Below, one piece after another: positions 8,817 to 23,776 of a DNA stretch of 64,000 bases. Origin of the DNA: Beijerinckiaceae bacterium (lineage in GTDB: Bacteria; Pseudomonadota; Alphaproteobacteria; Rhizobiales; Beijerinckiaceae); NCBI GenBank assembly GCA_004564215.1, contig CP024846.1, positions 3,237,501-3,301,500 of the forward strand, given 5' to 3'. A program made the position numbers and the translations under genes. The notes beneath the pieces were generated by a model that saw only the letters and a program-made list of their open reading frames with translations, searched no databases and was not told where the DNA came from. Each line of letters opens with the position of its first letter. Positions within the stretch are counted from its first letter, which is position 1.

Positions 8817-9145
8817 CGAAACGCTTCTCACTCTCGAATGGCAGCAAACGGCCAGCTTTTCCCAAGTCAAAAAAATGCAGTGCTCAATGAATATAAGTAC
8901 ATTTGCGCTCCGGGCCGTCGAGCGAAATCGATGGCGAGTTCACGGAGCGGTTTCGCGTTCTGCGTGTGGAGCGCCCTCCTCGGTCGATGGACACCTCTGG
9001 GTTCATCCATTTGTATTGACGAATTGCAGCGTGAGCACTAGCGTCAATCAAGCAAAAGCCGACACGCGGAGAACGCCGGTCGGGACGTGTTCGCGGCCAA
9101 TGCGCCGCGCAAGGCGTGACCGGTTCGGGGTCGAAGGGGGAAAAT
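8817..9145. other. divergent intergenic region
   Basis: About 330 bases between cdh and the pentad-repeat cassette. No gene seen. A TTGACG hexamer at about 9016 could be a -35 element for the cassette, but this is tentative. Confidence 0.35.
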
Positions 9146-10018
9146 TTGCAAGTAAATGTCCCCAAGCTGGATATTCAGCAGGCAGGCCTCACCACCATTT
9201 CGGTTGGTCAGGTTGCGATCGGGCCGATCACGGTCGGCGATCTCGTCTTGAACAACACCGATTTTGCCCTCACGGGGGCGCAGGGCCTTCTCAAGAATGT
9301 GAATGTGACGGTCACGGTGAAAATTTCCGTCGAATGGCATGTTCATGTTGGATTGCCGGATGGAATTCCGGACATCGACGTCGGCGATACCTATGATCTT
9401 GGCTCACTCAGCTTCCCGATGCCGGTCGGCGATATCGCAATTCCCGCGTTGAACAACGTCCATATCAACATCCCGACGTTGAACGCGCAAAATCTGTCGG
9501 TGTCGGCCAACCCCTTGAGCCTTCAGCTTCAGAACACGACCGCCGATCAAATCCATATCGACCATGCGACGCTGCCTTCGGCAGGCTTCACAATTGCAGG
9601 CTTGGCGCTGGCCTCCGTGGAAGGCGAGGCGGTCAGCGTGCCCGCCGCGAAGGTGGATCAGGCGACGATCCGCCATGTCCATGCCGATCCGATCAAAATT
9701 CCTTCGTTCACGCTCGGCAATCTGCATCTCCCCGCCGCGCAGATCCCGCACGTCAGCAGTTCGGCGCCGCTCGATATTCCGGCCAATCTGCAGACGAGAT
9801 CGGTGGGCTTCGACGCCGGCATTTTGCGGATCTCGATCAAGGTCAAGCCCTCGGCATTATCGCACATCGATCATCTGGAAATATCCAACGCAAACGCGAG
9901 CGCCACCGTTGGTCAGATCGTGCTGCATAATGTTGTGCTACCCTTTGATGCTCTGAATCTTACATTATCTCAGATCGGGATCAATACGATCGAGATCCCG
10001 GCGTTTACCGTCGCGTAG
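9146..10018 (+). CDS. unrecognised pentad-repeat beta-rich protein, copy A1
   Basis: 290 residues, no family recognised. The chain is almost wholly alternating hydrophobic/polar. It opens with pentads of the form hxhGx (ISVGQ-VAIGP-ITVGD) and repeats similar short strands throughout, as in a beta-solenoid or stacked beta-sheet protein. There is no signal peptide, membrane helix or cysteine. A TTG start at 9146, after AAGGGGG, is chosen because it gives exactly the N-terminal length of the paralogue at 10360 before the shared ISVGQV block; a GTG at 9116 is possible. The C-terminus (NLTLSQIGINTIEIP) is closely conserved in that paralogue. It starts a four-gene plus-strand cassette. Confidence 0.75.
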   Translation: MQVNVPKLDIQQAGLTTISVGQVAIGPITVGDLVLNNTDFALTGAQGLLKNVNVTVTVKISVEWHVHVGLPDGIPDIDVGDTYDLGSLSFPMPVGDIAIPALNNVHINIPTLNAQNLSVSANPLSLQLQNTTADQIHIDHATLPSAGFTIAGLALASVEGEAVSVPAAKVDQATIRHVHADPIKIPSFTLGNLHLPAAQIPHVSSSAPLDIPANLQTRSVGFDAGILRISIKVKPSALSHIDHLEISNANASATVGQIVLHNVVLPFDALNLTLSQIGINTIEIPAFTVA

Positions 10019-10029
10019 AGGAGGCCCCA

Positions 10030-10299
10030 ATGGCCGACGACGAAACTCCCGAAGTTACGATGGTTCCGGTGAAGAGATACGACGTCAACGTGACACTTGA
10101 CGAAATTCTCACTCCGCTCGTGGAAATCAGCAACCGGCAAGTCCCGACCGCGACTGGGATCCAAATGACGCAATTGGAGCCGCACCTCCAAAAATTAAGC
10201 GATCTCGCCAAGCAGCTAAAGGAGGTTGTCGGGCAGATCAATGAGATCCATCCCGCTCTGCTGACCCCGCAGACACAGAGGCGATCGACGACCGAGTGA
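10030..10299 (+). CDS. small acidic protein of the pentad-repeat cassette, S1
   Basis: 89 residues, starting 11 bases after A1 with a GAGGAGG ribosome site. The N-terminus is acidic (ADDETPE). It has a beta-like segment RYDVNVTLDEILTPLVEISN and an amphipathic helix LEPHLQKLSDLAKQLKEVVG. The V-x-V-x-x-T/S-L-x-E-x-L core resembles the start of the 74-residue protein at 11239, so the two may be diverged homologues. No known family. The position suggests a partner or chaperone of the large protein. Confidence 0.72.
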   Translation: MADDETPEVTMVPVKRYDVNVTLDEILTPLVEISNRQVPTATGIQMTQLEPHLQKLSDLAKQLKEVVGQINEIHPALLTPQTQRRSTTE

Positions 10300-10359
10300 T
10301 CTTTGTAAAATGCGCGCAAGGGTGCGCCGAGACGTCAAGCGAGCGGAAGGGTGGGGCGC

Positions 10360-11226
10360 ATGTTCACGACGATCGCGGAAGCCGACATCAAGCAACTTGG
10401 GATCGGCGCCATCAGCGTAGGGCAAGTGGGAATTGGCCCGATCAAGATCGGCCATCTTGTCGTCAGCGACTTCGAGCTTAATGCAGCGGGCGACGGCGCC
10501 GTACTTCGCAACTTTCGAGTCATCATCTCATACGACATGAGTATCGAGTGGCGCCTTCGCCTTGAAGTTCCGGGAGTTGCGGCAGAGGACAGCGGCACTG
10601 TGGAATTGGGCATTCAAAATTTCGAAGTGGGGTTTGGCGATCTCAAGCTGCCGGGGCTTGAGAATCTCAAGATCAAGATTGACAGTCTGAACGTCGATAA
10701 CATCGCCGCCGCCGCTGCGCCGATCACCAATCTTGAGTTGGGGAAGGCTGTCGCAGAACAGATCAAGATTCAGAACGTCAAACTGCCGACGCAAGGATTC
10801 ACTCTGGCCGGGCTTGGACTCGGCGCCCTGAAAGTCGGTGGCGTTGGCGTTCCGGCCGCAAACCTCGATTCGTTTAAGATCGGCCGGTTGAAGGGCGATG
10901 CATTTCCGCTCGGCCAGATGTCGATCGGCAATCTCTCGCTTCCCAGCGCTTCGATTGCCGACATTGCCAGCCAAGGTGTCGATGTGAGTGCTGTGCCGAG
11001 ACCCAAAGCCTTTCATATCGATTTGGGTTGCCTCGATCTCACGATCAAGGTCAATCCGAAGGCGGCAGCGCACATCGACCAATTGCTGATCCACAATGTT
11101 TCCGCGAGCACGTCGATCGGCAAAATCGAATTGCGCGATGTTGTGGCGCCCTATGAGTTATTGAACCTGACCTTGGCGCAGCTCGGGATTGACACGATTT
11201 CGGTTCCACAAGTCTCCATCGCTTGA
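10360..11226 (+). CDS. unrecognised pentad-repeat beta-rich protein, copy A2
   Basis: 288-residue paralogue of the protein at 9146-10018, aligning end to end. Shared blocks include ISVGQVGIGPIKIGHLVV at the N-terminus, QGFTLAGLGLGALKVG in the middle, HIDQLLIHNVSASTSIGKIE near the C-terminus and the end NLTLAQLGIDTISVPQ. GGAAGG precedes the ATG at 10360; a GTG at 10351 is less likely. It is cytoplasmic by sequence, with no export signal. Tandem duplication of an A-S module followed by divergence is the simplest origin. No function assigned. Confidence 0.78.
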   Translation: MFTTIAEADIKQLGIGAISVGQVGIGPIKIGHLVVSDFELNAAGDGAVLRNFRVIISYDMSIEWRLRLEVPGVAAEDSGTVELGIQNFEVGFGDLKLPGLENLKIKIDSLNVDNIAAAAAPITNLELGKAVAEQIKIQNVKLPTQGFTLAGLGLGALKVGGVGVPAANLDSFKIGRLKGDAFPLGQMSIGNLSLPSASIADIASQGVDVSAVPRPKAFHIDLGCLDLTIKVNPKAAAHIDQLLIHNVSASTSIGKIELRDVVAPYELLNLTLAQLGIDTISVPQVSIA

Positions 11227-11238
11227 AGGAGTGGGCAG

Positions 11239-11463
11239 ATGTCCGATAACAAGGACTTCGACTATGAATATGTGGAAGTCAAAGTCACCAAAAAGATCGA
11301 GATAACGCTTTCGCCCGGCGAGTTGCTTGCCTTGGCCCAGAGGCAGGCCGGGGCGGTGGTGAACACGGTGCAGGACGCGCCTCGGCAGGGCGCTGGCCGC
11401 ATCGCCAAGATGGGGCAAGCTCTGAAGGACACGGTCATGGGACGACCCAAGGATTCCGGCTAG
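11239..11463 (+). CDS. small protein of the pentad-repeat cassette, S2
   Basis: 74 residues, with AAGGAG 8 bases before the ATG and only 12 bases after A2. The N-terminus is acidic and aromatic (DNKDFDYEYVEVKVTKKIEI), followed by a helix LSPGELLALAQRQAGAVVNT and a basic amphipathic tail. Its first 45 residues weakly resemble S1 (beta strand, then T-L-x-x-x-x-L helix). Last gene of the cassette; the next gene is convergent. Confidence 0.72.
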   Translation: MSDNKDFDYEYVEVKVTKKIEITLSPGELLALAQRQAGAVVNTVQDAPRQGAGRIAKMGQALKDTVMGRPKDSG

Positions 11464-11561
11464 CTCGATGTGCCTGGTTTGAACTCAACCGCCTCGGCAC
11501 AGCCTTGGGTTTTGCCACGCGCCGGTGTTCGTGTTGACGCTCGCGTCGACGATTGCAAAGC

Positions 11562-12428
11562 CTAAAAACCATAGACGAGCCTCAGCCCGGCTTCGTAGCG
11601 CTCAAAATTTGCAAGATCGGCATGGCGGGCTCCGAAATCCGGAACCTGGAATGCCCAGGCGAACGATGCCGTTAAGCTCTTGTCCAATTGCAGAAATACG
11701 TGCGGGCCCACGAACAGCGCGTGAGACCTAGGGAAACCATAGGGCGCGAAATTCTCATGGCGGATCTCCGCGCCGACGAGAAAATTCGGGGTGATCACAT
11801 AAGAGCCACCGACCAGGACCGTGAAGGAATCGTCGCGCAACCACTGGCCAGCCAATGGCCTCCAGAATGGCGCATAAGCGAGGTTGAGTTCCATAAAGAG
11901 TTGGTTGGGGATCACCTCCTTGTCGATGAGCAAGGCCGCGGTAATGGCAGCATTGTCGTTATATCTTCCGAACCCGGGATCGGTGCGGCGCCATTCCGGG
12001 TCGAAGGTGAAGGTCATCCCAAAGGGCGACGTCAGCCGATTGAGGATATTCCACCGAATTTCCGCGACAATTCCGCTGAGATTCGCCCCATTTCGGATGC
12101 TGAGGCGGGGGTCGTGGATGTTGAGATAATCGGTGAGAGTGCCAACCGAGAATCGAAGCTCATCGGTCACGGTGTACCGAATCGAAGTGTCGTTGGCGAT
12201 GTTGAAATCGCGTCCGATCGCCCCGAAGCTTCCCCCCGTAAAGCTCTCGATCTCCCATTCTCCCTGAGCGCCAATATCCGATCCCTCGCCAAACCCGAAG
12301 ATGTGCTCGGTGTCGAAATGCGGCCCGGCATGGCCGTTGTCACTCTGGGCCTCGGTTTGCGACAGTGCGGGCTTGGCTAAGGCGAGCAAAAGGACCATTG
12401 CACAGGCAACTATCCTCGTGTGCACCAT
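11562..12428 (-). CDS. outer-membrane beta-barrel protein
   Basis: 288 residues with an N-terminal signal peptide (hydrophobic core AMVLLLALAKPALSQ, cleavage near residue 23). Alternating amphipathic strands follow, ending in the aromatic terminus GLRLVYGF typical of BAM substrates. GGAGGG precedes the start. It is divergent from mntR, with a TTAGC-N4-GCTAA palindrome about 64 bases upstream, suggesting metal-linked control. Manganese-regulated outer-membrane channels such as MnoP are known in alphaproteobacteria, but no sequence relation to MnoP is claimed. Substrate unknown. Confidence 0.75.
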   Translation of the reverse strand: MVHTRIVACAMVLLLALAKPALSQTEAQSDNGHAGPHFDTEHIFGFGEGSDIGAQGEWEIESFTGGSFGAIGRDFNIANDTSIRYTVTDELRFSVGTLTDYLNIHDPRLSIRNGANLSGIVAEIRWNILNRLTSPFGMTFTFDPEWRRTDPGFGRYNDNAAITAALLIDKEVIPNQLFMELNLAYAPFWRPLAGQWLRDDSFTVLVGGSYVITPNFLVGAEIRHENFAPYGFPRSHALFVGPHVFLQLDKSLTASFAWAFQVPDFGARHADLANFERYEAGLRLVYGF

Positions 12429-12491
12429 GTATTTCCCTCCATGGACGCATTTAGAAGTCGCAAAAGCGATCTTTAGGTGCGGTACATAAAG

Positions 12492-12505
12492 TTAGCTAAG
12501 GCTAA
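12492..12505. promoter_or_regulatory. palindrome TTAGC-TAAG-GCTAA, candidate MntR/DtxR-type operator
   Basis: A perfect 5-bp inverted repeat around 4 bases in the divergent region between the outer-membrane protein and mntR. The half-sites resemble the TTAG/CTAA halves of DtxR-family operators. It is nearer the outer-membrane gene (about 64 bases) than mntR (about 170). Confidence 0.4.
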
Positions 12506-12674
12506 TAATTGTGTCAACGGCAAAGTCGGGTGGGCCGTCCGATTGGCGGTCCCGAACCCGTTCTAGCTCTTGGTCAGGCGGGGAGTTTTGGCTAGGAGTG
12601 CTCTTCCGGGGAGCTGAACATCGCGTTCGGGTTACGCTCTAGGATAGACTGATCGGCAATATGAGGAGCCTGCG

Positions 12675-13121
12675 ATGACCGGCGCTGACAATGAAAAGCA
12701 GGAGACCGCTCGTCACGCCGAACGGTTCGGGCGGGTGCGCGACGCTCATCAACGGGAATTGGCCGAAGATTATGTCGAGCTGATCGCCGATCTCATCGAC
12801 CAAAGAGGGGAGGCGCGCGTCGTGGATTTAGCGGGGCGCCTGGGTGTGACCAATGCGACCGTCAACAACACGATCCAGCGGCTCCAGCGCGATGGTCTGG
12901 TGACAAGCAAACCCTACCGCTCAATCTTCCTGACAGTGCAGGGCAAGGAGTTAGCCGACACATCGCGTGAGCGCCATCACGTGGTTCGGGAGTTTCTTGT
13001 CGCGCTCGGCGTCGATCTTGAGACGGCGGACATCGACGCCGAGGGAATCGAGCACCATGTCAGCGATGCGACACTGGGCGCTTTCCGCGGCTACCTAAAG
13101 AAGCATCGGCCCGTTCGCTGA
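12675..13121 (+). CDS. mntR: manganese-responsive transcriptional regulator MntR (DtxR family)
   Basis: 148 residues. The N-terminal winged helix-turn-helix (RVVDLAGRLGVTNATVNNTI, RLQRDGLVTSKPYRSIFLT) is followed by the dimerisation/metal region with RERHHVVREFLVALGV and EGIEHHVSD, the DtxR/MntR ligand segments. There is no SH3-like third domain, which fits MntR rather than DtxR/IdeR. TGAGGAG precedes the ATG. With Mn(II) bound such proteins repress manganese uptake genes. No mntH or sitABCD is present in the window; the adjacent outer-membrane gene is the obvious local target candidate. Confidence 0.88.
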   Translation: MTGADNEKQETARHAERFGRVRDAHQRELAEDYVELIADLIDQRGEARVVDLAGRLGVTNATVNNTIQRLQRDGLVTSKPYRSIFLTVQGKELADTSRERHHVVREFLVALGVDLETADIDAEGIEHHVSDATLGAFRGYLKKHRPVR

Positions 13122-13132
13122 AAGTGGCAAAC

Positions 13133-13150
13133 CCTTGAGCAAGGTCAAGG
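13133..13150. promoter_or_regulatory. FixK/FNR/Anr-type box CCTTGAGCAAGGTCAAGG
   Basis: TTGA-N6-TCAA with outer bases also symmetric (CCTTGA/TCAAGG). Its centre lies about 62 bases before the usp start codon, suitable for a class II CRP/FNR-family activator. Universal stress proteins are common FixK/Anr targets in alphaproteobacteria, so the context supports the call. Confidence 0.6.
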
Positions 13151-13203
13151 ACATGTCGCTGTATGCGGACTAGGGTTAGGCATATCAACAATGGAAAACC
13201 CGC

Positions 13204-14049
13204 ATGCAATTTAAGAGTGTCTGTCTCGCCCTGAGCTTCGGTGAATTGATCCCGGAGCCCGAGGAACCAAGCTTTGCCGCAGAAAACTATGCCATTTCCT
13301 TCTGTGCGCGCGAGCAAGCCCATCTTTCGGTCTTTATGGCGGCGCCAAATCTTCGTCTCCCGAGCGCCGGATTTGTTCCGCTCACGCATGCGCTGGTCGA
13401 TGAGATCAACGCCGAGCGGTACGCCCATGCCGAAGAAGCCCAAAAAAGAATCACAAACGCCGCAGCGATTGCGGGCGTCACCGTCGAATTTCAAATCGTG
13501 CAGCAATCCTACACCGAAACAAACCAATGCCTCGCTGCGGCGGCAAGAACGAGCGACATCGTCATCGTTTCCCGACCGACGGAAGGCCTTTCCCTCGACC
13601 GGGACCTGACGGAGGCCATGCTGTTCGCCTCGGGGCGGCCGGTCCTTGTGATCCCGGCAAACTGGGTGCGCGGGGCCGAGTTTCGAAATATCATGATTGG
13701 CTGGGATGGCGGCGCTCGGGCGGCGCGAGCCGTCGGGGATGCCATGCCTTTTCTTTTGCGCGCGGAAAAAGTCGAGATCGTTTGTGTTTCACCCGACTCG
13801 GAAAAGAGCATGCGTGGGGCCGATCTCGCGGCTCATCTCGCGCGACACTGCAAAAGCGTGACGGTCACGGAGATTCCGGTGCAGCATGGCAATGTTGCCA
13901 AAGCCTTGGCAAGTCATGCGGCGATGGGGAAAATGGATCTGATGGTCATTGGCGCCTATGCGCATCCCAAGCTGCTTCAGATGGTGCTCGGCGGTGTTAC
14001 AAGTGGTATGCTGTCGGAAGCGGAGCTGCCGGTTCTTCTTTCCTACTGA
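13204..14049 (+). CDS. universal stress protein (tandem UspA-like)
   Basis: 281 residues in two Usp-like halves. The first (residues 1-150) is diverged and ends in RPVLVIPANW; the second begins FRNIMIGWDGGARAARAVGD and ends MVIGAYAHPKLLQMVLGGVT followed by ELPVLLSY. The small-residue pattern G-A-Y-x-H-x(9)-GG-V-T matches the nucleotide-binding loop of UspA proteins in adapted form. GGAAAA precedes the ATG. It is first in a likely operon with the small membrane protein and the metal ATPase, behind a FixK/FNR-type box, so expression under low oxygen is inferred. Confidence 0.87.
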   Translation: MQFKSVCLALSFGELIPEPEEPSFAAENYAISFCAREQAHLSVFMAAPNLRLPSAGFVPLTHALVDEINAERYAHAEEAQKRITNAAAIAGVTVEFQIVQQSYTETNQCLAAAARTSDIVIVSRPTEGLSLDRDLTEAMLFASGRPVLVIPANWVRGAEFRNIMIGWDGGARAARAVGDAMPFLLRAEKVEIVCVSPDSEKSMRGADLAAHLARHCKSVTVTEIPVQHGNVAKALASHAAMGKMDLMVIGAYAHPKLLQMVLGGVTSGMLSEAELPVLLSY

Positions 14050-14123
14050 GTCCGAGCCTTTGATGGGGAGTCCATGCCATCGGCGTAGGCGATGGCCGAT
14101 CCGAAATACTTCGGCTGGTTGAC

Positions 14124-14417
14124 ATGAACCTTCCCAGCGATCCAAATCCAATGGAGAAACCAAGCGGGCGGATGCTGCGTCGTTTAAGAGAGCCAAAATG
14201 GCGCGTGGTTCGCATTCCAGCCGGTGGGGTGTTCGTTCTTCTGGGGCTCGTCGGTTTTCTTCCTATTGTCGGCTTTTGGATGGTGCCGGTCGGGCTGGCA
14301 ATACTGGCGGTTGACTTTCCGCTTGCGGGTCGCCTTCTCCGAAAACTGAGGATCATATTCCGCTGGTTACGACGCTCCTTCCATCGTTGGAAGGGAGCGA
14401 CAAACTCACCTAAATGA
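14124..14417 (+). CDS. small PGPGW-type membrane protein
   Basis: 97 residues. Two closely spaced hydrophobic segments (PAGGVFVLLGLVGFLPIVGF and WMVPVGLAILAVDFPLAGRL) are followed by a basic tail RRLLRKLRIIFRWLRRSFHR. This matches the putative transmembrane PGPGW family (G-x-L-P-x-x-G-F-W-M-x-P-x-G). No biochemical role is known. It lies between usp and the ATPase with short gaps on both sides (74 and 15 bases), so co-transcription is likely. Confidence 0.72.
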   Translation: MNLPSDPNPMEKPSGRMLRRLREPKWRVVRIPAGGVFVLLGLVGFLPIVGFWMVPVGLAILAVDFPLAGRLLRKLRIIFRWLRRSFHRWKGATNSPK

Positions 14418-14432
14418 AGGCACGGCGCCAGG

Positions 14433-17400
14433 ATGTTTGAACCGGCATTCAGCGTAGTCTCGTTCATCAACGCGCGCATGGTGCGACGTGCTCTCATCGC
14501 GATCGCAATATTGGCACTTGGTGTCGGCATTACTCTCGCCCTCACCGGACGCAAGGACCTTGCGGAATGGATTTGGGCGGCGGGTACAATTCCTGTCGCC
14601 GCAAGCCTCGCCATCTCGATCGTTCGCAATCTCTTAGCCGGAAGGCTTGGCGTCGACGCCGTGGCGTTCCTGTCCATGGTGGCCGCCTTGGCGCTTGGCC
14701 AGACCCTGGCTGGAGTGGTGGTCGCCATTATGTATGCCGGTGGCAACGCTCTGGAGGATATTGCAATTCGGCGCGCCGAGCGGGACTTGAAGGCTCTGGT
14801 GGACCGCGCGCCGCGTGTGGCGCATCGAAAACGCGATGCATCGTTCGAGGATGTGCCGATCGAACAGATATCGATCGGCGATGCCCTTCTCGTGCGTGCG
14901 GGCGAAGTCGTTCCCGTCGACGGCCAGATCACCACTGCGAATGTTTCCCTCGACGAGTCGGCCGTAACCGGAGAGCCAATTCCGATCACAAGGCGGGGAG
15001 GGGAATTGGCGCGGAGCGGTACGATCAATGCCGGCGAGACATTCGAAATGCAGGCGTCGACGACGGCTGGAGAAAGCACTTATGCCGGCATTGTAAGCTT
15101 GGTCACGGCGGCTCAAACAGCCAAAGCCCCCTTCGTCCGGATGGCGGACCGCTTTGCGCTTCTTCTTCTGCCTGTGACGCTTTGCCTGGCGGGAGCCGCC
15201 TGGGCATTTTCTCATGATCCCATTCGGGCACTGGCGGTTCTCGTCGCCGCGACTCCGTGCCCGCTGATCCTGGCAGCCCCGGCCGCCTTTATCGCAGGGG
15301 CGGCGCAGGCCGCCCGCCGTGGCATTCTGATCAAGGGCGGCGGACCGCTCGAAGCGCTGGCACGCGCACACACGGTGATGTTCGACAAGACAGGCACTTT
15401 GACCGTCGGCGGGGCAAGGCTAGTTGCGATCGAAACGGCTCTGGGCGAAGACCCCGACGAAGCGTTGCGGCTTGCTGCGTCTCTTGAGCAAGCCTCGCAT
15501 CACATTGTCGCCGCCGCGATTGTGTCCGCCGCCTTGGCCAAGGGCCTGTCGCTGCAAATGCCGCGAAAGATACGCGAGACCATGGGATCCGGACTCGAAG
15601 GACTCGTGGACGACCGAATGATTTGTGTCGGTTCGCATCGACTTGTCTATGGAGGAACACGGCCGGAAGAATGGGCGTTTCGCGCTTTGCGGCGCGCTTC
15701 CTGGCGTTCCGCCCTCAGCGTCTTTGTTTCGGTCGATGGCCGCACGATTGCCGCCTTGCTTCTCGCCGATGAACTGCGGCGCGAAACGCCTCGCGCCGTC
15801 CAGGCTCTGCGTGCCGCGGGCGTGGCGCGCATTGTCATGGTGACCGGCGATCGCGCCGATTCGGCCGAGACGATTGGCGCCGCGCTGGATCTCGACGCCG
15901 TGCTTTCCGATCGCGTTCCGTCCGACAAGGTCGATGCGGTTGCAACCGAGCAGCGGCTTCACCCGACATTGATGGTCGGCGACGGCATCAATGATGCCCC
16001 GGCCTTGGCTGCGGCGGACGTCGGCATCGCCATGGGCGCTCGTGGCGCAAGTGCTTCCTCGGAGGCGGCCGACGTGGTCATTCTGGTCGATCGATTGGAC
16101 CGCGTTTCGGATGCGGTGGTCATCGCTAGGCGCACGCGGCGCATTGCCATCGAAAGCATTGTCGCCGGAATGTCGCTTTCCGCGATTGCAATGGGAGCCG
16201 CGGCTTTTGGCTGGCTGACGCCGATTGCCGGAGCGCTGACACAAGAGGTGATAGATGTCGCGGTGATCCTCAATGCGCTGAGGGCTCTCGGACCGGCGCG
16301 CGCGCCCCACCGGCTCTCGATGCCGGCGGGGACCGTGCAGGATCTCCATGAGGATCACCAAAAAGTTGAGGCAAGCCTGGACCGGTTGCGCCAGATCGTG
16401 GACGCGCTGGACGACGCCAGGCCCGAGATGGCGGTCCAATTCATTCTTGAGGCCAATCGAATCGTGGGCAAGGAGATTGTCGCGCACGAACGCGAAGACG
16501 TGGGCAGCGTTTATCCATGGTTGGCAAATATCCTCTCCGAGGCGCATGGCCTCAATGCCATGAGTCGCGCGCATCGCGAGATCCTTCATCTCGCAAGGCT
16601 CTTGGCTCGCCTGTCGGAGGGGCTTTCCCCAAGTGAATCGGATAGATATTTGATCCGGGATGCGCAACGCATCATCGAGTCCATCGAATCTCTCGTGCGT
16701 CTCCACAATGCGCAGGAAGAGGATATTTACGAGGAGGCCGTCGATTGGAGTGCCGAAAGCCCCTCTTCAACGGCCGGCTCTTTGCGCGCGCCGAGCGCGC
16801 GTGACGGGAAAGCAAAAAATCCGCCCCAAGATAAATTCCAAAGCACCCGCACGCGCCGCGCGGGGTGGCGTACGGCGGTTGCGACATTCGTCGTCGTTAT
16901 GCTGGCGTTCGGGGGCGGCTGGATCCTGTCCTCGCTGCATCGGGATCGGCCAACCCAGTACCGCACCCAGTCACTCGAGCGCGGCGCACTCGTCCGCAGC
17001 GTGGACGCGAACGGCGTTCTTGCGCCCACCGCGACGGTCCCGATCAGCGCCCGCAGGACGGGCACGATCCAGTCGCTTTCCTGCGACGTCACTATGCAAG
17101 TGAAGGCTGGCCAGCTCTGCGGGAAACTCGATCCGCGTGCCCTTCAGGACGCCCTCGATCGGGCCAAGGCGGAACTCTCGGCGGCAAAAGCCACGCTCGC
17201 GACGGACACGGTCGCTCTCGACGCCGCGAAGGCCGCCGTCGCGCGCGACGAGAAGCTGCCAAAGCGGCGGGCCCACAAGGCACTCGCTCAATCGCGCGAG
17301 GCTTTGACGCGAGCCCAGTCGCAGGTGAAGCGTGACGCGGCGGCGCTCGCCGCGCGTCAGGCCGCGCTCCGTGCCGCCGAGATCGCTCTGGGTTCGACCG

Positions 17401-18056
17401 ATCTTGTTTCACCGATCGAGGGAACCATCGTCTCGCGCAGCGTCGAAGTCGGCCAGAAAGCGACCCCCTCGGATCGGCTGTTTCTGGTTGCGGATCTGTC
17501 AACTCTGCAGCTCATGGCCAAGGTCAACGAGAAGGACATCGGCGCGCTCAAGCCCGGCCAGACAGCGCGTTTTACCGTCGAGGGGTTTGCGGACCGCGGC
17601 TTTGCCGGAGAAGTGACCCAGATTGATCCTGCGCCGCCGACATCCGAACCCGCCGCCGATTATAATGTCGCGATCCATGCGCCCAACCCCGAACTTTTGC
17701 TGAAACCCGGCATGACGGCAAGGATCGAGATCGAGCTTGCGCGGCGCGAAGATGTTTTCCATGTGCCCCATCAGGCGCTGCGCTATGCGCTGCTATCGGC
17801 GGCCGAAAGCGGCGCCGGCGCGCCCAAGGAAGGCTGGTCGCCGCTGTTGATCCTGCGCGCCGGAAAGCCGATGGCGATCCTGGTCAAGCCGGGTCTCGAC
17901 GATGGAACCGCGACGGAAATCATCGCGGGCGATCTCCGCCCGGGCGATGAGCTGATCCTCGGCGAAAGCAAGGACGTTCCAGGCGAGCAACAGCCTTGCC
18001 AAACCAAACCAAACCAATTTGACAACACTGATTGTGGGGATCGCGTAGCTGATTAA
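14433..18056 (+). CDS. P1B-5-type metal ATPase - hemerythrin - membrane-fusion (HlyD/MacA-like) fusion protein
   Basis: One uninterrupted 1207-residue frame with three parts. Residues 1-620 are a heavy-metal P-type ATPase: actuator loop VTGEP, metal-site motif TPCPL (about 274), DKTGTLT phosphorylation site (about 317), TGDRAD (about 470), GDGINDAPAL (about 515). Residues 635-775 are hemerythrin-like, with His/acid ligands in LHEDHQK, VAHEREDV, SRAHREILH and LHNAQEEDIYE. The TPC motif plus C-terminal hemerythrin defines P1B-5 ATPases such as Sinorhizobium Nia (Fe/Ni export). Residues 814-832 form a transmembrane helix, and 845-1190 a periplasmic adaptor with lipoyl halves, a coiled-coil hairpin and a barrel. 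The adaptor part is the novelty. The last 20 residues do not look like a normal adaptor end. Confidence 0.88.
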   Translation: MFEPAFSVVSFINARMVRRALIAIAILALGVGITLALTGRKDLAEWIWAAGTIPVAASLAISIVRNLLAGRLGVDAVAFLSMVAALALGQTLAGVVVAIMYAGGNALEDIAIRRAERDLKALVDRAPRVAHRKRDASFEDVPIEQISIGDALLVRAGEVVPVDGQITTANVSLDESAVTGEPIPITRRGGELARSGTINAGETFEMQASTTAGESTYAGIVSLVTAAQTAKAPFVRMADRFALLLLPVTLCLAGAAWAFSHDPIRALAVLVAATPCPLILAAPAAFIAGAAQAARRGILIKGGGPLEALARAHTVMFDKTGTLTVGGARLVAIETALGEDPDEALRLAASLEQASHHIVAAAIVSAALAKGLSLQMPRKIRETMGSGLEGLVDDRMICVGSHRLVYGGTRPEEWAFRALRRASWRSALSVFVSVDGRTIAALLLADELRRETPRAVQALRAAGVARIVMVTGDRADSAETIGAALDLDAVLSDRVPSDKVDAVATEQRLHPTLMVGDGINDAPALAAADVGIAMGARGASASSEAADVVILVDRLDRVSDAVVIARRTRRIAIESIVAGMSLSAIAMGAAAFGWLTPIAGALTQEVIDVAVILNALRALGPARAPHRLSMPAGTVQDLHEDHQKVEASLDRLRQIVDALDDARPEMAVQFILEANRIVGKEIVAHEREDVGSVYPWLANILSEAHGLNAMSRAHREILHLARLLARLSEGLSPSESDRYLIRDAQRIIESIESLVRLHNAQEEDIYEEAVDWSAESPSSTAGSLRAPSARDGKAKNPPQDKFQSTRTRRAGWRTAVATFVVVMLAFGGGWILSSLHRDRPTQYRTQSLERGALVRSVDANGVLAPTATVPISARRTGTIQSLSCDVTMQVKAGQLCGKLDPRALQDALDRAKAELSAAKATLATDTVALDAAKAAVARDEKLPKRRAHKALAQSREALTRAQSQVKRDAAALAARQAALRAAEIALGSTDLVSPIEGTIVSRSVEVGQKATPSDRLFLVADLSTLQLMAKVNEKDIGALKPGQTARFTVEGFADRGFAGEVTQIDPAPPTSEPAADYNVAIHAPNPELLLKPGMTARIEIELARREDVFHVPHQALRYALLSAAESGAGAPKEGWSPLLILRAGKPMAILVKPGLDDGTATEIIAGDLRPGDELILGESKDVPGEQQPCQTKPNQFDNTDCGDRVAD

Positions 18057-18125
18057 GGCGACAACAAATAGGGCAAGGATGCGCAGCAATGCCGAGCGTT
18101 GCCACAGCGCCGCGTAGCCGGGACC

Positions 18126-19196
18126 CTATACGCGGGTTCGGAATCGATTGATCCGTCGCCAGAGCGATGAGCTCTTTTCGGGAATACCAAGCGGAAGCAA
18201 TCCACCGGTGGTCGACTGAGGATCGATGTTGCAGCCGATCGGATGACCAGTCAGCGCCGCGATCTCCGACTGCGGCCGCTGTGATGCCTCAGATCCGACA
18301 GTCGCGTGAAAAATGATTGGGATACCGATCTCCGCTGCCATCTTGATAGCCGTCTGCAGCTGCGTGTCGCTATCATTGTGCCGAAAAAGGATGTACTTCC
18401 ACACAGCGCGAGTCGGACTCTTGCTCAAACGAATTGCATCCGCCAAATCGCGCGCAAATTGAAGGGCTCGCTTGAAATCGCCGGCGCGGCGATACCCTTC
18501 GTAGGAACTTTGATCCACCCCGTCCAAGGCCAGTTTAATTTCGTTAAGCCCGCAATCGGCTATTTCGTCAGCGCGGTGCTTCCCAAAATTGCCGTTTGTA
18601 TCCAGCCAAATATTGGACTCGGGAAACAAGGCGCGCGCGAGCCGCGCCATATCGGCCACCCTGGAATGAAATAATGGCTCTCCAAATCCAACCAAACCCA
18701 TGTCTCGCAAGCGCAATCCACTAGCGTGAATGCTGTTCAACGCCTTCTCATAAAGCTCATAATCCAGCAAGACGCGCGCCGGCGGGTTTTGTGTCAATCG
18801 TTCAAAGGTGCAAATGCAGGCTTCGCAGTAAAGGTTACATTGATTGCTCGGCTCTATGTGGAGATCGATATAGTCATATTTCTCTTTCGTATCAAAATCC
18901 GTCAGCCGAGATGGACACCCGTCACAAAAACTGAAGGGCTCATAACCGCTTGCAAAACTCTCCCGAATGAAACTCATCATTGGGCCATTGTAAAACGCTG
19001 CGATATCAACGTCGCGTAAATCTGCGAGAACGTCCCAGTACCGCATGCACGAGCAAGACATAGTCCCGTCCGCTTTGACGAACAGTGACTGGAGCTGCAT
19101 GCATCCTTTGAAATTAGTCTTGACCCGATTTTCTCGGAATTTCGGTATTTGTTCTTCCGTCACCATGTTCAAGGCCGGCGTAATGGTTTCACTCAT
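18126..19196 (-). CDS. radical SAM protein with N-terminal cysteine cluster region, copy 1
   Basis: 356 residues. The radical SAM cluster motif CNLYCEAC is at about 120-127, preceded by a cysteine-rich segment (KGC at 32, CSCM at 48-50, CDGC at 91-94) that may bind an auxiliary cluster as SPASM/twitch domains do. GFGEPLFH is the GGEP-like SAM motif. ATG 19196, after AAGGAAG, is chosen because the same leader and ribosome site precede the duplicate gene at 20422. Substrate unknown; similar proteins accompany cell-surface polysaccharide or peptide modification loci. Tandem duplicate of 19352-20422. Confidence 0.85.
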   Translation of the reverse strand: MSETITPALNMVTEEQIPKFRENRVKTNFKGCMQLQSLFVKADGTMSCSCMRYWDVLADLRDVDIAAFYNGPMMSFIRESFASGYEPFSFCDGCPSRLTDFDTKEKYDYIDLHIEPSNQCNLYCEACICTFERLTQNPPARVLLDYELYEKALNSIHASGLRLRDMGLVGFGEPLFHSRVADMARLARALFPESNIWLDTNGNFGKHRADEIADCGLNEIKLALDGVDQSSYEGYRRAGDFKRALQFARDLADAIRLSKSPTRAVWKYILFRHNDSDTQLQTAIKMAAEIGIPIIFHATVGSEASQRPQSEIAALTGHPIGCNIDPQSTTGGLLPLGIPEKSSSLWRRINRFRTRV

Positions 19197-19244
19197 TTTT
19201 CGCTTCCTTGCGTAAATGCTTTGTGCCGCCCACAGTCCTTTTTC

Positions 19245-19300
19245 GCACTCAACACGCAAAGGCAGTCTGGTTAGCCACTCAAGCCCAATACATGCTAATC
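19245..19300 (-). pseudogene. fossil 3' end of a second copy of the 598-residue radical SAM gene
   Basis: About 50 bases here match the last codons of the gene at 21980-23776: shared GGCTTGAGTGG and GCCTTTGCGTGTTGA with small gaps between. The intact gene ends LEWTDETAFAC; here the frame is broken. The remnant sits directly upstream of radical SAM copy 1, which suggests the ancestral order was large radical SAM gene then small radical SAM gene. Confidence 0.55.
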
Positions 19301-19351
19301 AATTGCGTCGGATGGTCGGAGTGACCTCACGATCCGATCGCCAATGAGACC

Positions 19352-20422
19352 CTAGGCGCGGGTCCGAAATCGATTGATCCGTCGCCAAAGCGACGAACTC
19401 TTTTCGGGAATGCCGAGCGGAAGTATCTCACCGCTGGTCGACCGAGGATCGATGTTGCAGCCGATTGGCTTACCGGTCAATGCCGCGATCTCGGGCGCGG
19501 GCCGCTTTGATGCCTCTGATCCCACAGTCGCGTCAAAAATGATTGGGATACCGATCTCACCCGCCATCTTGATGGCCGTTAGGATCTGATTGTCGCTATC
19601 ATTGTGCCGAAAGAGGATATACTTCCAGACCGCGCGGGTCGAACTCTTGCTCAAACGAATCGCATCCGCCAGATCGTGAGCAAATTGAAAAGCTCGCTTG
19701 AAATCACCGGCACGACGATAGGCTTCGTAGGAACTCTGATCTACCCCATCCAAGGCAAGTCTAATTTCGCTGAGCCCGCAATCGGCTATCTCTTCGGCGC
19801 GTTGCTTTCCAAAATTGCCGTTTGTGTCCAGGAAAATATAGCAATCGGGAAACAACTTACGCCCAAGCCGCGCCATATCGGGCGCCTTGGAATGGAATAA
19901 TGGCTCTCCAAATCCAACCAAGGCCAAGTGCCGAACGCGCAATCCAGCAGCTTGGATGTTGTAGAGCGCCTTCTCATAAAGCTCATAATCCAGCGAGACC
20001 CGCGAAGGCGGGTTTTGAGTCAAACGCTCGAAGGTGCAAATGCAGGCTTCGCAGTAAAGATTACATTGATTACTCGGCTCGATATGGAGATCGATGTAGT
20101 CAAATTGCTGTCTTGCATCAAAATCCGTCAGCCGAGACGGGCACCCCTCGCAAAAGCTGAACGGCTCATAGCCGTTTGCAAAACTGTCCCGAATGAAACT
20201 CATCAACGGTCCGTTAAAAAACGTTGCGAGATCAACGCTGTGCAAGTCAGCCAAAATGTCCCAGTACCGCATGCACGAGCAGGAGATCGTCGCGTCGGCT
20301 TTGACGAAAACCTGGTAGAGCTGCGTGCATCCTTTGAAATTGGTCTTGACCCGATTTTCTCGGAATCGAGGTATTTGTTCTTCCGTCACCATATTCAAAG
20401 TTGGTGTAATGGATTCGCCCAT
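19352..20422 (-). CDS. radical SAM protein with N-terminal cysteine cluster region, copy 2
   Basis: 356 residues, a near-identical duplicate of the protein at 18126-19196 with the same length and cysteine positions (KGC, CSCM, CEGC, then CNLYCEAC). Shared segments include KTNFKGC, FERLTQNPP, CGLxEIxLALDGVDQSSYE and the C-terminus EKSSSLWRRINRFRTR. Differences are scattered single residues, so both copies appear intact and under selection. ATG 20422 is preceded by AAGGAAG. No substrate peptide gene was recognised next to it. Confidence 0.85.
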   Translation of the reverse strand: MGESITPTLNMVTEEQIPRFRENRVKTNFKGCTQLYQVFVKADATISCSCMRYWDILADLHSVDLATFFNGPLMSFIRDSFANGYEPFSFCEGCPSRLTDFDARQQFDYIDLHIEPSNQCNLYCEACICTFERLTQNPPSRVSLDYELYEKALYNIQAAGLRVRHLALVGFGEPLFHSKAPDMARLGRKLFPDCYIFLDTNGNFGKQRAEEIADCGLSEIRLALDGVDQSSYEAYRRAGDFKRAFQFAHDLADAIRLSKSSTRAVWKYILFRHNDSDNQILTAIKMAGEIGIPIIFDATVGSEASKRPAPEIAALTGKPIGCNIDPRSTSGEILPLGIPEKSSSLWRRINRFRTRA

Positions 20423-20839
20423 TTTTCGCTTCCTTGCGTAAATTCTTAACTGATTGTTGCCAGAATGTTCACGCAATAAATATTATCTTGGCACTTGGGA
20501 CGCCAACCTAACGCGCAGTCGACCCAGTATACTCTAATTGCGGCCTCATCCTGCTTTCTTTCCACTTTCCTGACAAGGAGGGGCCGGTACGTTTGGAAGC
20601 GCACCCGTCGGATTTCGAGCGTGCCCCGTTTCGTGCTGTAAAGACGCTGGTCTAGGCGCGATTCGCCACTTTCACGTTCGAATTACAGGACCGATGACCT
20701 GTACGTGGTAACTTATCCGTCCCAATCTTCCGGGCGATAACTAAGTGTCGGCAAGAAATCGACGAACCACGAAACGGATTTGTCGACGACGATTGCTTAC
20801 GCTAGGGTATTTGGACCCAACATTATCCAGAGGAAACCA
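20423..20839. other. intergenic region inside the radical SAM island
   Basis: About 415 bases between the divergent radical SAM copy 2 and the CmoB-like methyltransferase. No credible gene; relatively AT-rich near 20470-20490. An upstream TTG at 20780 could extend the methyltransferase but lacks a ribosome site. Confidence 0.4.
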
Positions 20840-21826
20840 GTGTTCGTTCCACTAGAGGTTGATTACGCGCAGTCGCCCATCGAGCCGCTGTTCGACGTAT
20901 CGGCCTCTGCCGATTGGAAGTTTCGCCTCTTGGCCGACTTGCTGGCGGACCGGAATTTTCGTGCCGATGGTGAGGACCAGGCAGTCCGACGTGCTCTCGA
21001 CATGGGCTGCTTTCAGCGCATCGATATCCCCGGCACGAAAAGAACCACGAGTTCCGATCACTCGCGGGTCGCAGTGCTGGGCGGCAATCCACTGCAAACA
21101 CTTTTCGGTATGCTCACAGACACGGACGGCTCGATCCTTCGCCCGCGAGCCAAGTGGTGCTACCTTGAGCCGACGCTTCCCGACCTGACGGGTAAGACGG
21201 TGCTCGATGCTGGGTGCAATTGCGGCTTTTTTTCCTTTGAGTTCGTTCGGCTGGGCGCGGCCCACGTGACCGGCTGCGACCTCGTTAAGGCCAGCGTCGA
21301 CGCAGCCTCCTATCTCGCGCGCGAGAAGAAGTGCTCGAACAAGGTGAGGTTCGTCTGCGACGATTTCACGCGGTCAACCGAACTCAAATCGCACGACGTT
21401 GTGTTCATGAGCGAGGTCTTTACCCACTCACCAAGCCCGGTCAACACACTATATGCCGCTGCCCTTCTTGCCGAGGAGACGCTAATCATCGACGACTTCT
21501 TCGAGCGCCAGGACGGGCCGCTCGATTTCTACGTCGCTGTATCGTCAGAGAGCGAACCATTCCCAGGGACCAAACCGGGCCAATTCGTCTTTCTTGCGGC
21601 TTCCGTATCAGAGCGCCTGCTGCTTAAATCGCTGCGGATAGCCGGAGTGCTGCCATCAAGGGTTCGACGACTGCAAAACCCGATGGAGCCGCGTCACACG
21701 CTGATCATCGCCGACATGCGTGGCGCACGCGAGCGCCGGGAAAACGAGTTGTGGCATCCCTATCTGCGCTCGATGATCGGGGAGGAGCGCAGGTCGGCAC
21801 ATGCAGACCCGTCCACTCCCTCATAG
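20840..21826 (+). CDS. class I SAM-dependent methyltransferase, CmoB/DUF1698-like
   Basis: 328 residues. Motif I VLDAGCNCGFFSFEFVRLGA, followed by VTGCDL and a CDDF acidic motif, resembles the CmoB/DUF1698 group of tRNA-wobble-uridine carboxymethyl transferases and related sugar or lipid methyltransferases. The start is GTG 20840 with AGAGGA 6 bases upstream; TTG 20780 has no such site. It lacks the long N-terminal helical region of real CmoB. Its setting among radical SAM genes suggests modification of a surface molecule rather than tRNA. Confidence 0.75.
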   Translation: MFVPLEVDYAQSPIEPLFDVSASADWKFRLLADLLADRNFRADGEDQAVRRALDMGCFQRIDIPGTKRTTSSDHSRVAVLGGNPLQTLFGMLTDTDGSILRPRAKWCYLEPTLPDLTGKTVLDAGCNCGFFSFEFVRLGAAHVTGCDLVKASVDAASYLAREKKCSNKVRFVCDDFTRSTELKSHDVVFMSEVFTHSPSPVNTLYAAALLAEETLIIDDFFERQDGPLDFYVAVSSESEPFPGTKPGQFVFLAASVSERLLLKSLRIAGVLPSRVRRLQNPMEPRHTLIIADMRGARERRENELWHPYLRSMIGEERRSAHADPSTPS

Positions 21827-21979
21827 GGTCCTTATCAGAATGACGATAGGCTGTAAGTCCTGCCCTAATGGGCTCAACTCAGAGGAAAATTCGTCCTCGC
21901 TGGCCATCGGCCGAAGCCGAGCCGCCAACTAAGGTTTTATGATTGCTCCTGCAGCCCATCTCTACTCCGGACAACGCAC

Positions 21980-23776
21980 TCAACACGCAAAGGCGGTCTC
22001 GTCAGTCCACTCAAGCCCGTCTTCCGCAAACCAATCGATGTGATCGCGGTAGAGCGTTCCAAAGTCCTGGTGGCGGGATTTGTCCATATCGTTTGTAAAT
22101 TTGAGGAAATTAGTGAAATCAGCGCGGTATTGGATACTTTCGTGTTCCGCCAAAAACGTCAGCATGTATTGAGCTGACGCTATATTTTGTGGACGGCAGT
22201 TTCCTTCGAGATAAGATTGCAGCCGTTCGGCAGCAATTCTTCGCGCTGTTTTTGGCAAAACAAGCGCATTGAGATATTGCGGGCCCACCAAAAAATGGGT
22301 GTATCCATCAATGCCATTCTCGTCGCAGTATTTTAAAATGTCCGTGACGTGCAAGAGATTATATAATTGTACTGCTACGCTGAACGTTCTCACAACATTT
22401 GGAAGATCGGCGATCCGCGCAAGATTTTTTTCTATTTCCGACCAATGAGCTGGATAGCGGATGTATTCAAGATAAGGGCCTATGCCGTCGATGCTCGCGC
22501 ACAAATGCACCTGCTTGAGTTGCGCCAGCTTCTCCAGGGTCGATTGCTTGAGAACGGTCATATTGGACACGATTTCGAACGTGACATGCGAGGCCGCGCC
22601 ATTCACAATCAATAGATCGAGGATTTCTTCAAACTCTTTCACCAATAGCGGCTCGCCGCCTTGAAAAGTGATACATCTAAGCTGATCGGGTTCGCTTAGA
22701 ATTTCCCCGAACATGACTTCCTTATTTGCCCACCATCCCTCATTGCAGGAGAATCTCGTTAAAGCACGTTCGTTGGAGGCTGCTCTCACCTCTGACGGCT
22801 TGCGCTCAAGCCACGCATCCAGCAGGGCTACCCCCAACGGGCGCCCACCAAATGCTTCAGCGCCCGAGATGAATTCGATTTCGATCTCCGGCTGATTGCC
22901 TAGTCCCGGGCGTTCGAAGCGCTCCGTCCAGTCGCCGGAAATCTCGCCGTGAAACTGCTCCAATCCATTTATACGAATGGACACCGAAGTTTTGTTTCGG
23001 TAGCCGCGGAGGGAGATGCCAATCGCACATATATCAGCGCCAGGTGGAACGGCCAGAGTCATTTTGCCCGCGCCATTCGTCCAACGCAGGCCGCCGAAGG
23101 CACCGCCTTCGTAGTCGTAAAAGCCCTGGTAGCCGACGCCAAAATGGGATCGGGGAGCAAAGTGTAAATTATTGCTCCGCCACCGTGCTACGTCCGGGTA
23201 AACCGCTGGCATCCATTTATTGTGAACGGGATCATTCTCGATTCGGGAGGAGTATTGGCTGGAACACATGCGGCAAGCCAAATTGCACAAATTGCCCATG
23301 TTGAGCTGAAGGACTTGGGGTCGAGATGCGACCTTCCATTCCTTGGTTCTAGCGTCTTCCAGAAACTCCTCAGGCGTCTTGTCGCTGGCTGCAAGCCAAA
23401 CCGAGTTCTGCATGATCCGGCGGCTTTGGCCGACCGATGCTTCTTCGCGATAGCAACGCGCGCAAGCCGAAATCTCTTCTCCCGCGGCCATTCCGCGGCG
23501 AGCGTCCCGCATATACTTCGAGTTCCAAATGTCCTCGTAAGTTTCGGAATAGAGGGACATTGCGCGGCCGCCATCGGAGATGTCCTCGCCCGCGATGCAG
23601 CACATCTTAACCGTGCCATTCGGCGCAATTTGTAAATGGTTGAATGCAAGGACACAGAATGTGTCCTTGCCGCCAATTGCGGCCGCAGGGGTTTCGATAC
23701 TCCGGCTTGACTCGAGCGCTTTCGGCGCGCGCTTCAGGCGCCGGAGAAGAAACCCAAAAAAGCTCTTGATGCTCAT
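21980..23776 (-). CDS. radical SAM protein with twitch-type cysteines and inserted beta domain
   Basis: 598 residues. An N-terminal twitch-like cysteine region (C41, CC59-60, CARC 105-108) precedes the radical SAM motif CNLACRMC (164-171). About 120 residues (roughly 210-330) are then inserted before the SAM-binding motif ITFQGGEPLLVK (about 374). The insert looks like a beta-sandwich (YDYEGGAFGGLRWT, AIGISLRGY, VSIRINGLEQF) of the kind found as accessory domains in polysaccharide enzymes. The start codon at 23776 has only a weak ribosome site. Substrate unknown. The C-terminal sequence is partly repeated at 19245-19300. Confidence 0.85.
   Translation of the reverse strand: MSIKSFFGFLLRRLKRAPKALESSRSIETPAAAIGGKDTFCVLAFNHLQIAPNGTVKMCCIAGEDISDGGRAMSLYSETYEDIWNSKYMRDARRGMAAGEEISACARCYREEASVGQSRRIMQNSVWLAASDKTPEEFLEDARTKEWKVASRPQVLQLNMGNLCNLACRMCSSQYSSRIENDPVHNKWMPAVYPDVARWRSNNLHFAPRSHFGVGYQGFYDYEGGAFGGLRWTNGAGKMTLAVPPGADICAIGISLRGYRNKTSVSIRINGLEQFHGEISGDWTERFERPGLGNQPEIEIEFISGAEAFGGRPLGVALLDAWLERKPSEVRAASNERALTRFSCNEGWWANKEVMFGEILSEPDQLRCITFQGGEPLLVKEFEEILDLLIVNGAASHVTFEIVSNMTVLKQSTLEKLAQLKQVHLCASIDGIGPYLEYIRYPAHWSEIEKNLARIADLPNVVRTFSVAVQLYNLLHVTDILKYCDENGIDGYTHFLVGPQYLNALVLPKTARRIAAERLQSYLEGNCRPQNIASAQYMLTFLAEHESIQYRADFTNFLKFTNDMDKSRHQDFGTLYRDHIDWFAEDGLEWTDETAFAC

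Follow-up and report, generated by a model that had tools for sequence, protein, structure and literature searches.

The stretch of DNA analyzed here (the window) comprises 64,000 nucleotides of contig CP024846.1 from a Beijerinckiaceae bacterium. It carries a gene that encodes a P1B-5-type metal ATPase, a hemerythrin domain, a transmembrane (TM) helix and a MacA-type periplasmic adaptor in one chain (Table 1). The frame of 1207 residues has zero internal stops, as a preliminary description of this DNA had stated. A frameshift between the ATPase and the adaptor was looked for and none was found; one frame runs throughout.

Domains of the fusion protein

The Pfam matches above cut-off are E1-E2_ATPase (residues 126-296, 141.6 bits), Hydrolase (314-529), a modest Hemerythrin match, HlyD_D23 (867-1096, 78 bits) and HlyD_3 (991-1093). 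The NCBIfam model of heavy-metal P-type ATPases (TIGR01525) scores 500 bits against a cut-off of 346, and the adaptor model TIGR01730 (RND_mfp) is also above its cut-off. With the hydropathy of the extra helix, these matches bear out the domain order that had been read from the letters. The ATPase motifs TPC, DKTGTLT and GDGINDAPAL are all present. The sequence ATPCPL, which holds the TPC motif of the metal-site helix, is common to 22 of the 23 ATPase rows of our alignment A1; the remaining row (L028) is void.

The assignment to the P1B-5 group agrees with TIGR01525, the TPC motif, the C-terminal hemerythrin and the structural matches. P1B-5 ATPases with a C-terminal hemerythrin are known from Sinorhizobium meliloti (Nia) and Acidothermus cellulolyticus. 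The window protein shares with them the TPC motif, the QExxD...N core helix and the hemerythrin, but adds an extra helix and a 400-aa adaptor after the hemerythrin. A plasmid protein of S. meliloti 1021, which we take to be Nia, matches one of the fusions (L219) with 46.9% over residues 37-763. By likeness to Nia, the ATPase would export a transition metal, Fe or Ni, to the periplasm.

The hemerythrin ligand positions of the window protein read H...HxxxD...HxE...HxxxxE. Compared with the motif in the accessible part of PMC9388753 (H-HxxxE-HxE-HxxxxD), two carboxylates differ conservatively (D for E, E for D). The same part of that paper places the hemerythrin of such ATPases in the cytosol. 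The extra helix would put the adaptor in the periplasm, which matches a cytosolic hemerythrin. Within residues 776-812 of the linker there is one possible start (ATG, GTG, TTG or CTG), TTG784, and ATG823 falls inside the helix. Separate internal translation of the adaptor is unlikely.

The adaptor matches MacA (5nik) in phmmer with E 6.7e-29, over residues 32-392 of a 401-residue query (361 residues). It has the domain set of MacA, namely the TM anchor, membrane-proximal, barrel, lipoyl and hairpin parts, and the modeled hairpin, lipoyl and barrel parts of the fused adaptors match MacA in the Protein Data Bank. Thus it shares domain order, fold and nearly full-length sequence with MacA of the MacAB-TolC system. 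In contrast to MacA, it is fused to a P-type ATPase instead of being paired with MacB, its RLS motif is incomplete, and it remains below the cut-off of the MacA equivalog PRK11578 (137 against 342). CzcB, CusB and ZneB are separate periplasmic adaptors of RND pumps in metal efflux; the window adaptor matches ZneB (3lnn) weakly in sequence, and TIGR00999 gives 81.7 against a cut-off of 319.

A model of residues 11-1207 was calculated with AlphaFold2 (AF2) from A1, which includes the void row (wrong strand). The mean local confidence (pLDDT) is 77.6 and the global score (pTM) is 0.47; the linker and the new helix are poorly modeled, and the relative arrangement of the domains is unreliable. In the model, the ATPase has its helices and domains, the hemerythrin part is helical, and the adaptor shows strands, two hairpin helices of approximately 40 residues and more strands after the barrel. 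Foldseek places P1B ATPases on top (4bbj, 4umw, 7r0g) and MacA 9qgy at rank 37.

Table 1. Features of the fusion gene and of its upstream neighbors in the window.
Feature	Position	Strand	Evidence
Whole fusion gene, 1207 aa: P1B-5-type ATPase, hemerythrin, TM helix, MacA-type adaptor	14433..18056	+	Frame, Pfam, NCBIfam, AF2
P1B ATPase core, residues 1-630; ATPCPL 273-278, DKTGTLT from 318, QEVID...NALRAL in last core helix	14433..16322	+	Pfam, NCBIfam, motifs, Foldseek
Hemerythrin (HHE) domain, residues 635-767	16335..16733	+	Pfam 28.6 bits, cut-off 25.3
Linker, residues 768-813, Arg-rich directly before the helix (RTRRAGWR)	16734..16871	+	Sequence; pLDDT <50 at protein 775-840 (model 765-830)
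Extra hydrophobic helix, residues 814-832	16872..16928	+	Mean hydropathy 2.02; AF2 confidence low here
MacA-type adaptor: lipoyl halves, alpha-hairpin, beta-barrel, membrane-proximal domain	16929..18002	+	phmmer to MacA 5nik; secondary structure
Conserved cysteine pair C884 and C896, lipoyl domain	17082..17120	+	7.1 and 7.3 bits in alignment
Hairpin tip RDEKLPKRRA--HK, residues 938-949	17244..17279	+	RLS incomplete: R and L there, S lost in two-residue gap
1162-bp tract, 21 mismatches to adaptor of Ca-type (P2A) fusion of same genome (L009 6946-8107)	16837..17998	+	98% identical
C-terminal tail, 19 residues past the shared tract	17997..18053	+	Sequence
PGPGW-like small membrane protein, upstream, ends 15 bp before fusion gene	14124..14417	+	PF09656 23.2 bits, just below cut-off 23.3
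Universal stress protein family, upstream	13204..14049	+	Pfam PF00582
DtxR/MntR-type metal-dependent repressor, upstream	12675..13121	+	PF01325, PF02742 above cut-off

The fusion of P1B ATPase, hemerythrin and adaptor is real. The same three-domain order is encoded in G005, G006 and G011, which belong to the genus of the window (g1). Nine public proteins have it too; the sequences of P0003 and P0004 start within the ATPase, and the adaptor of P0008 is cut. Two further genera contribute 12 loci, at one of which (L261) just the later portion of the ATPase is seen. An assembly join is rejected because fusions occur in independent genomes; likewise, the fusion is not unique to the window genome, and relatives do not all have two separate genes. 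One observation tells against the fusion: other relatives have a P1B-hemerythrin protein without adaptor. In Methylocella tundrae (plasmid 3), such a protein ends nine residues beyond the match.

Hosts and history of the adaptor module

The preliminary description knew of no other case of such a chain. Indeed, the full-text literature searched, which covered few subscription papers, has no description of a P-type ATPase-adaptor chain. The statement was too narrow in another respect, since the chain is one of many in which the same C-terminal module is joined to a host. The hosts across the set are P1B-hemerythrin ATPases, two P2A (Ca-type) lineages, P3A ATPases, subunit IV of cytochrome bo oxidase (CyoD), AtpA, AHSA1, DUF202 and 4-TM proteins.

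At least 39 of the 64 genomes examined, from three genera of one family, carry a fusion. Genus g1 (15 genomes), Methylocella/Methylocapsa-like going by the names given to related proteins, has 17 fused frames in seven genomes (G000, G001, G003, G004, G005, G006 and G011; contig-edge fragments of G006 are left out). Their hosts are P1B-hemerythrin (4), P2A (3), P3A (2), CyoD (6) and a 4-TM protein (2). Genus g18, which includes Methylocystis (39 genomes), has at least 48 fused frames in 25 genomes, and g176 (10 genomes) has at least 14 in seven; both are lower bounds from chosen matches, mostly long frames. The hosts in these two genera are the second P2A lineage (33), P1B-hemerythrin (12), CyoD (5), the first P2A lineage (4), AtpA (3), AHSA1 (3) and P3A (2). 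A family-wide search of 298 genomes from 43 genera, in which few candidates were scored per genome, matched 28 genomes of five genera; the frames of the two other matching genera (g168, g170) have 378-451 aa. This search overturned a limitation of the module to one genus.

In one search of public proteins, 39 of 45 matches contain all or part of a P-type ATPase, with 27 of the P3A type, nine P1B-hemerythrin and three P2A, two of these P2A being of the second lineage. CyoD is carried by 104 of the 120 public matches listed, from 3689 overall. Among 50 further public proteins, 18 have a 4-TM host and one has DUF202 (on a 1.9-kb contig); P0191 ends in the Cation_ATPase_C domain of a further P-type ATPase. 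The frames of the g1, public and g18/g176 surveys run from stop to stop, and some of their N-termini are too long. A limitation to P-type ATPases is overturned by the CyoD, AtpA, AHSA1 and other hosts, and the idea that only ion pumps serve as hosts is weakened by AHSA1, DUF202 and 4-TM proteins.

Two fusions lie on a complete plasmid, pGW6_1 of Methylocystis rosea GW6. WP_245434982.1 (coding sequence 313481-316999) and WP_124740331.1 (133058-136813) are annotated as single genes at positions where ATPase and adaptor share one frame. RefSeq labels both only as 'HAD-IC family P-type ATPase', and names of this kind hide the fusions. CyoD-adaptor fusions (L010 4465-5646; P0047-P0166) are labeled in the sources either as an oxidase subunit or as an HlyD protein. 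Plasmid pRX1 of Methylocapsa polymorpha (L294) has a P1B-hemerythrin-adaptor gene with a frame broken in the ATPase part; the annotation covers its adaptor end only, an AI-2E transporter and a stress protein are encoded upstream, and another P-type ATPase is encoded downstream.

At L270 (2119-4743, forward strand), L247 and L271, AtpA (the alpha subunit of an F-type ATPase) is followed by a linker, a helix and an adaptor of the same clade; L270 and L247 were assigned by Pfam and L271 by likeness. Genes resembling F-type ATPase subunits a, c and b lie upstream of the fusion at L270, an arrangement presumably of the N-ATPase type. Three loci of g176 (L211, L286 and L288, the last by likeness) join AHSA1 (SRPBCC), expected to be cytosolic, to the helix and adaptor. 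The C-terminus of CyoD is periplasmic. In the model of a CyoD fusion, three helices are followed directly by the adaptor, so that host helix 3 replaces the adaptor's own helix. In the first set, of g1 and public fusions, none of the 110 CyoD fusions and neither of the two 4-TM fusions has the C-terminal membrane-proximal part of the adaptor; 45 of the 49 P-type fusions have it, as do five of the 18 4-TM proteins of the later public set.

In an adaptor tree of 99 rows, all 93 fused modules form one clade (support 99) beside MacAs. Immediately downstream of each of the MacAs L192, L193, L221 and L222 lies a MacB with 68-70% identity to the one next to L082. Of these MacB-linked MacAs, L192, L221 and L222 belong to g18 in the same family, L193 comes from another family and L082 is from g1. 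The fewest host changes on this tree are 18, or 17 if the two P2A lineages are merged. As judged from these sequences, a single origin of the module from a MacB-linked MacA is most likely, followed by fusion to many hosts and exchange between them. All our trees were made with a quick method and have long branches, and their inner order is unsure. The adaptor tree excludes P0180 and P0196 and includes public proteins tagged as g1 without proof of genus; P0022 groups with L248 of G677 (g18, 4% contamination), which puts in doubt either the tag of P0022 or the loci of G677.

The ATPase tree (46 rows) places the P1B-hemerythrin ATPases of these genera in one clade (support 100) with 23 fused and nine unfused rows, three of the latter being repeat entries of the same locus. 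This tree omits fused frames of up to 1000 aa (P0003, P0004, P0151, L261) and, for G002 and G014, the second P1B copy, which is unfused. Three changes of fusion state suffice: the adaptor could, for instance, have been gained once early and lost twice, or gained more than once.

The adaptor of the window protein lies in a tract shared with the P2A fusion of the same genome. All mismatches fall in the first 224 bp; over the remaining 938 bp (17061-17998) the P1B and P2A copies do not differ, and the tract ends inside the P2A stop codon. Compared with the window protein, P0008 and P0002 have ATPase parts 95% and 98% identical but adaptors only 86% and 91% identical, which fits recent gene conversion. 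Such conversion is shown for the window genome only. The P1B and P2A adaptors of G005 share 58% identity, a value no higher than between genomes. Two cyo regions of G001 (L068 and L069) share 95% identity over 4.6 kb, and their CyoD parts do not differ at all; the fused adaptors, by contrast, are only 70% identical in protein sequence, as if the module had been exchanged.

The ratios of nonsynonymous to synonymous substitution (dN/dS) were calculated by the Nei-Gojobori method; dS often approaches or exceeds 1, which makes the ratios rough. They are 0.29-0.42 for 11 same-class pairs of fused adaptors, 0.41-0.52 for three cross-class pairs and 0.08-0.22 for the host parts of nine computable pairs (in a tenth, the CyoD parts are identical). 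Free-standing controls gave 0.21-0.31 for five ABC-linked (ATP-binding cassette) adaptors of g1 (10 distinct pairs) and 0.18-0.41 for five MacB-linked MacAs (10 pairs). The module evolves under purifying selection that is less stringent than for the hosts, and the ranges overlap with those of free adaptors. That fused adaptors evolve faster than free ones held against the ABC-linked set, but not clearly against the MacB-linked one.

Possible roles of the fused adaptor

Periplasmic adaptors are treated in the accessible parts of PMC4446572 and PMC3391258 as components of tripartite efflux pumps and type I secretion. The term P-type does not occur in the main texts, as far as accessible, of two adaptor reviews (PMC4446572, PMC13328181), and the searchable text of a pangenome study of type II methylotrophs (PMC11237726) mentions no HlyD, P-type or fusion. 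The tandem adaptor DSY0927 and the engineered AcrA dimers, described in the accessible part of PMC4446572, also have an adaptor in a fused chain. However, these are adaptor-adaptor or engineered fusions, whereas the window protein is a natural pump-adaptor chain.

In the window protein, the serine of the RLS docking motif is absent. The exact motif occurs in five of 161 adaptors from g1 and the public proteins. With one rule for all rows, RLS or RLT was found in 9/93 fused rows against 5/6 free-standing ones. RLS is intact in four of the five MacB-linked free-standing MacAs, L082 having A instead of S, and the wider pattern R...L......S/T is present in nine of ten free-standing adaptors (absent from L082) as well as in L221 and L222. 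Intact TolC docking as a trait of the family is rejected on these counts. Across those 161 adaptors the tip is conserved in a different form, with R at +7 in 149 and K at +13 in 154. Tips in g18 and g176 are variable, and several of them are shorter.

The partners of a MacA-type system were also searched for. None of the ABC, RND or OEP families was found among the nine window genes at 9116-23776 scanned with Pfam. The genome has three MacB_PCD matches, one below cut-off, in frames of 424, 897 and 444 aa, all elsewhere. In G000, the three matches to a MacB of the genus (E <= 1e-40) all cover the ABC part only. It is possible that a MacB-like gene pair acts from elsewhere.

With no ABC partner, a docking motif mostly lost, the fold, cysteines and selection kept and mechanistically diverse hosts, we favor a periplasmic oligomerization or anchoring module for pumps, rather than a MacB-type TolC-docking conduit. 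We assign this reading a probability of roughly 0.4. Unrelated hosts have only the module in common, which speaks for it. The P1B ATPase would pump a transition metal into the periplasm, and the extra helix would set the adaptor on the exit side of the pump. There the adaptor could gather pumps into rings or clusters, or hold them at one site of the envelope, and would not act as a conduit that docks to TolC.

Several observations weigh against this reading. The adaptors evolve faster than their hosts, which would also suit a loosely constrained appendage. Three kinds of host, AHSA1, DUF202 and the 4-TM proteins, are not known to be pumps. The tip is kept in an altered form, with S in 149 of the 161 adaptors, and the loss of RLS leaves docking to another channel possible; two OEP genes were found in the window genome, the nearest approximately 123 kb from the fusion gene. 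Furthermore, the helix before the adaptor is weak, with a mean hydropathy of 1.34-1.57 in seven of 12 proteins examined; it reached 1.6 in five, one of these being CyoD's own helix. Because the helix is weak in other fusions, the topology is predicted rather than shown.

A wider proposal recasts the MacA adaptor, in one group of alphaproteobacteria with methanotrophs among them, as a general periplasmic coupling module on primary ion pumps, namely metal, calcium and proton P-type ATPases, an F-type ATPase alpha subunit and cytochrome bo oxidase. Related modules might co-assemble into mixed rings or multi-pump clusters, or might keep exporters at the cell boundary, off intracytoplasmic membranes. 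We hold this to be speculative and on balance doubtful. Type II methanotrophs are generally taken to have intracytoplasmic membranes. The accessible text of PMC11237726 states that they lack them. Two genomes bear on whether fusions go along with pMMO or such membranes: the window genome carries a gene of the AMO/PmoA family, and the P1B ATPase of Methylocella tundrae is unfused; known Methylocella strains have the soluble enzyme only, according to the accessible part of PMC7660913. If the proposal is true, such coupling would constitute a kind of adaptor function distinct from tripartite efflux. A single adaptor clade that has mostly lost its docking motif, has kept its fold and cysteine pair and is attached to many pumps and other proteins raises the question of an adaptor's role when TolC and MacB are absent, and natural fusions are available to test it.

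The preliminary description had suggested that the pumped metal could be handed to a trans-envelope conduit. The adaptor would dock to an outer-membrane channel, the metal would exit the cell and the altered tip would fit a divergent TolC. The full adaptor with its hairpin, the OEP channels encoded in the genome, the conservation of S and of K at +13 and the nine fused rows with RLS or RLT are consistent with this. It is weakened by the rarity of the exact motif, the shortened tips of g18 and g176 and the absence of a MacB, RND or channel gene among the scanned neighbors, and it would make little sense for AtpA, CyoD and AHSA1 hosts. According to the accessible part of PMC3391258, substituting R, L or S individually has an effect on TolC binding, with the serine as the most permissive position. 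We consider a conduit unlikely.

Rather less probable is a loosely constrained passenger, tolerated after fusion and spread by recombination without strong benefit. The faster evolution of the adaptor than of its host, the variable tip and membrane-proximal domain and the unfused P1B proteins of some lineages would suit it. So would the sister protein P0008, the nearest to the window protein, in which the adaptor match stops after 208 residues and the remainder looks frame-shifted; either the module is broken or the sequence is in error. On the other hand, dN/dS is well below 1 and overlaps that of MacB-linked MacAs, each of the three genera has both P1B and CyoD fusions, only three fusion-state changes are needed over the 46 rows of the ATPase tree, and the cysteine pair is constant.

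Both lipoyl cysteine columns are Cys in all 93 fused rows. This constancy and the DtxR-type regulator upstream would suit a redox- or metal-responsive periplasmic sensor, in which the pair binds metal or switches a disulfide to tune the pump and the hemerythrin is a second sensor. However, the pair is present in three of the six free-standing rows of the same alignment, all three MacB-linked MacAs, and was seen in L192, L193, L221, L222 and L082; it is thus inherited, and it may be a plain structural disulfide. A sensor seems slightly less probable again than a passenger. An assembly chimera or sequencing artefact has a negligible chance: a mis-join or over-polishing is conceivable in a 1.16-kb repeat, but the genome is a single 3.33-Mb contig (99.5% complete), the differing repeat flanks and the placement of the mismatches make both junctions distinct, and other genomes and the complete Methylocystis plasmid carry such fusions.

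Genomic surroundings

The PGPGW-like gene and the fusion gene are probably on the same transcript. The upstream DtxR-type repressor and its neighbors suggest that expression of the fusion gene is metal-regulated, as predicted from gene order. A PGPGW-like gene 62% identical to that of the window lies at L071 2230-2457, near the P2A fusion of G005. Further upstream, two adjoining genes (9116-11226) encode similar-looking proteins of 300 and 291 aa, the first of which has no Pfam match. Downstream of the fusion gene and on the opposite strand are radical SAM genes; the regions 18126-20476 and 20780-23776 hold two similar radical SAM genes in tandem, a methyltransferase gene and a SPASM radical SAM gene.

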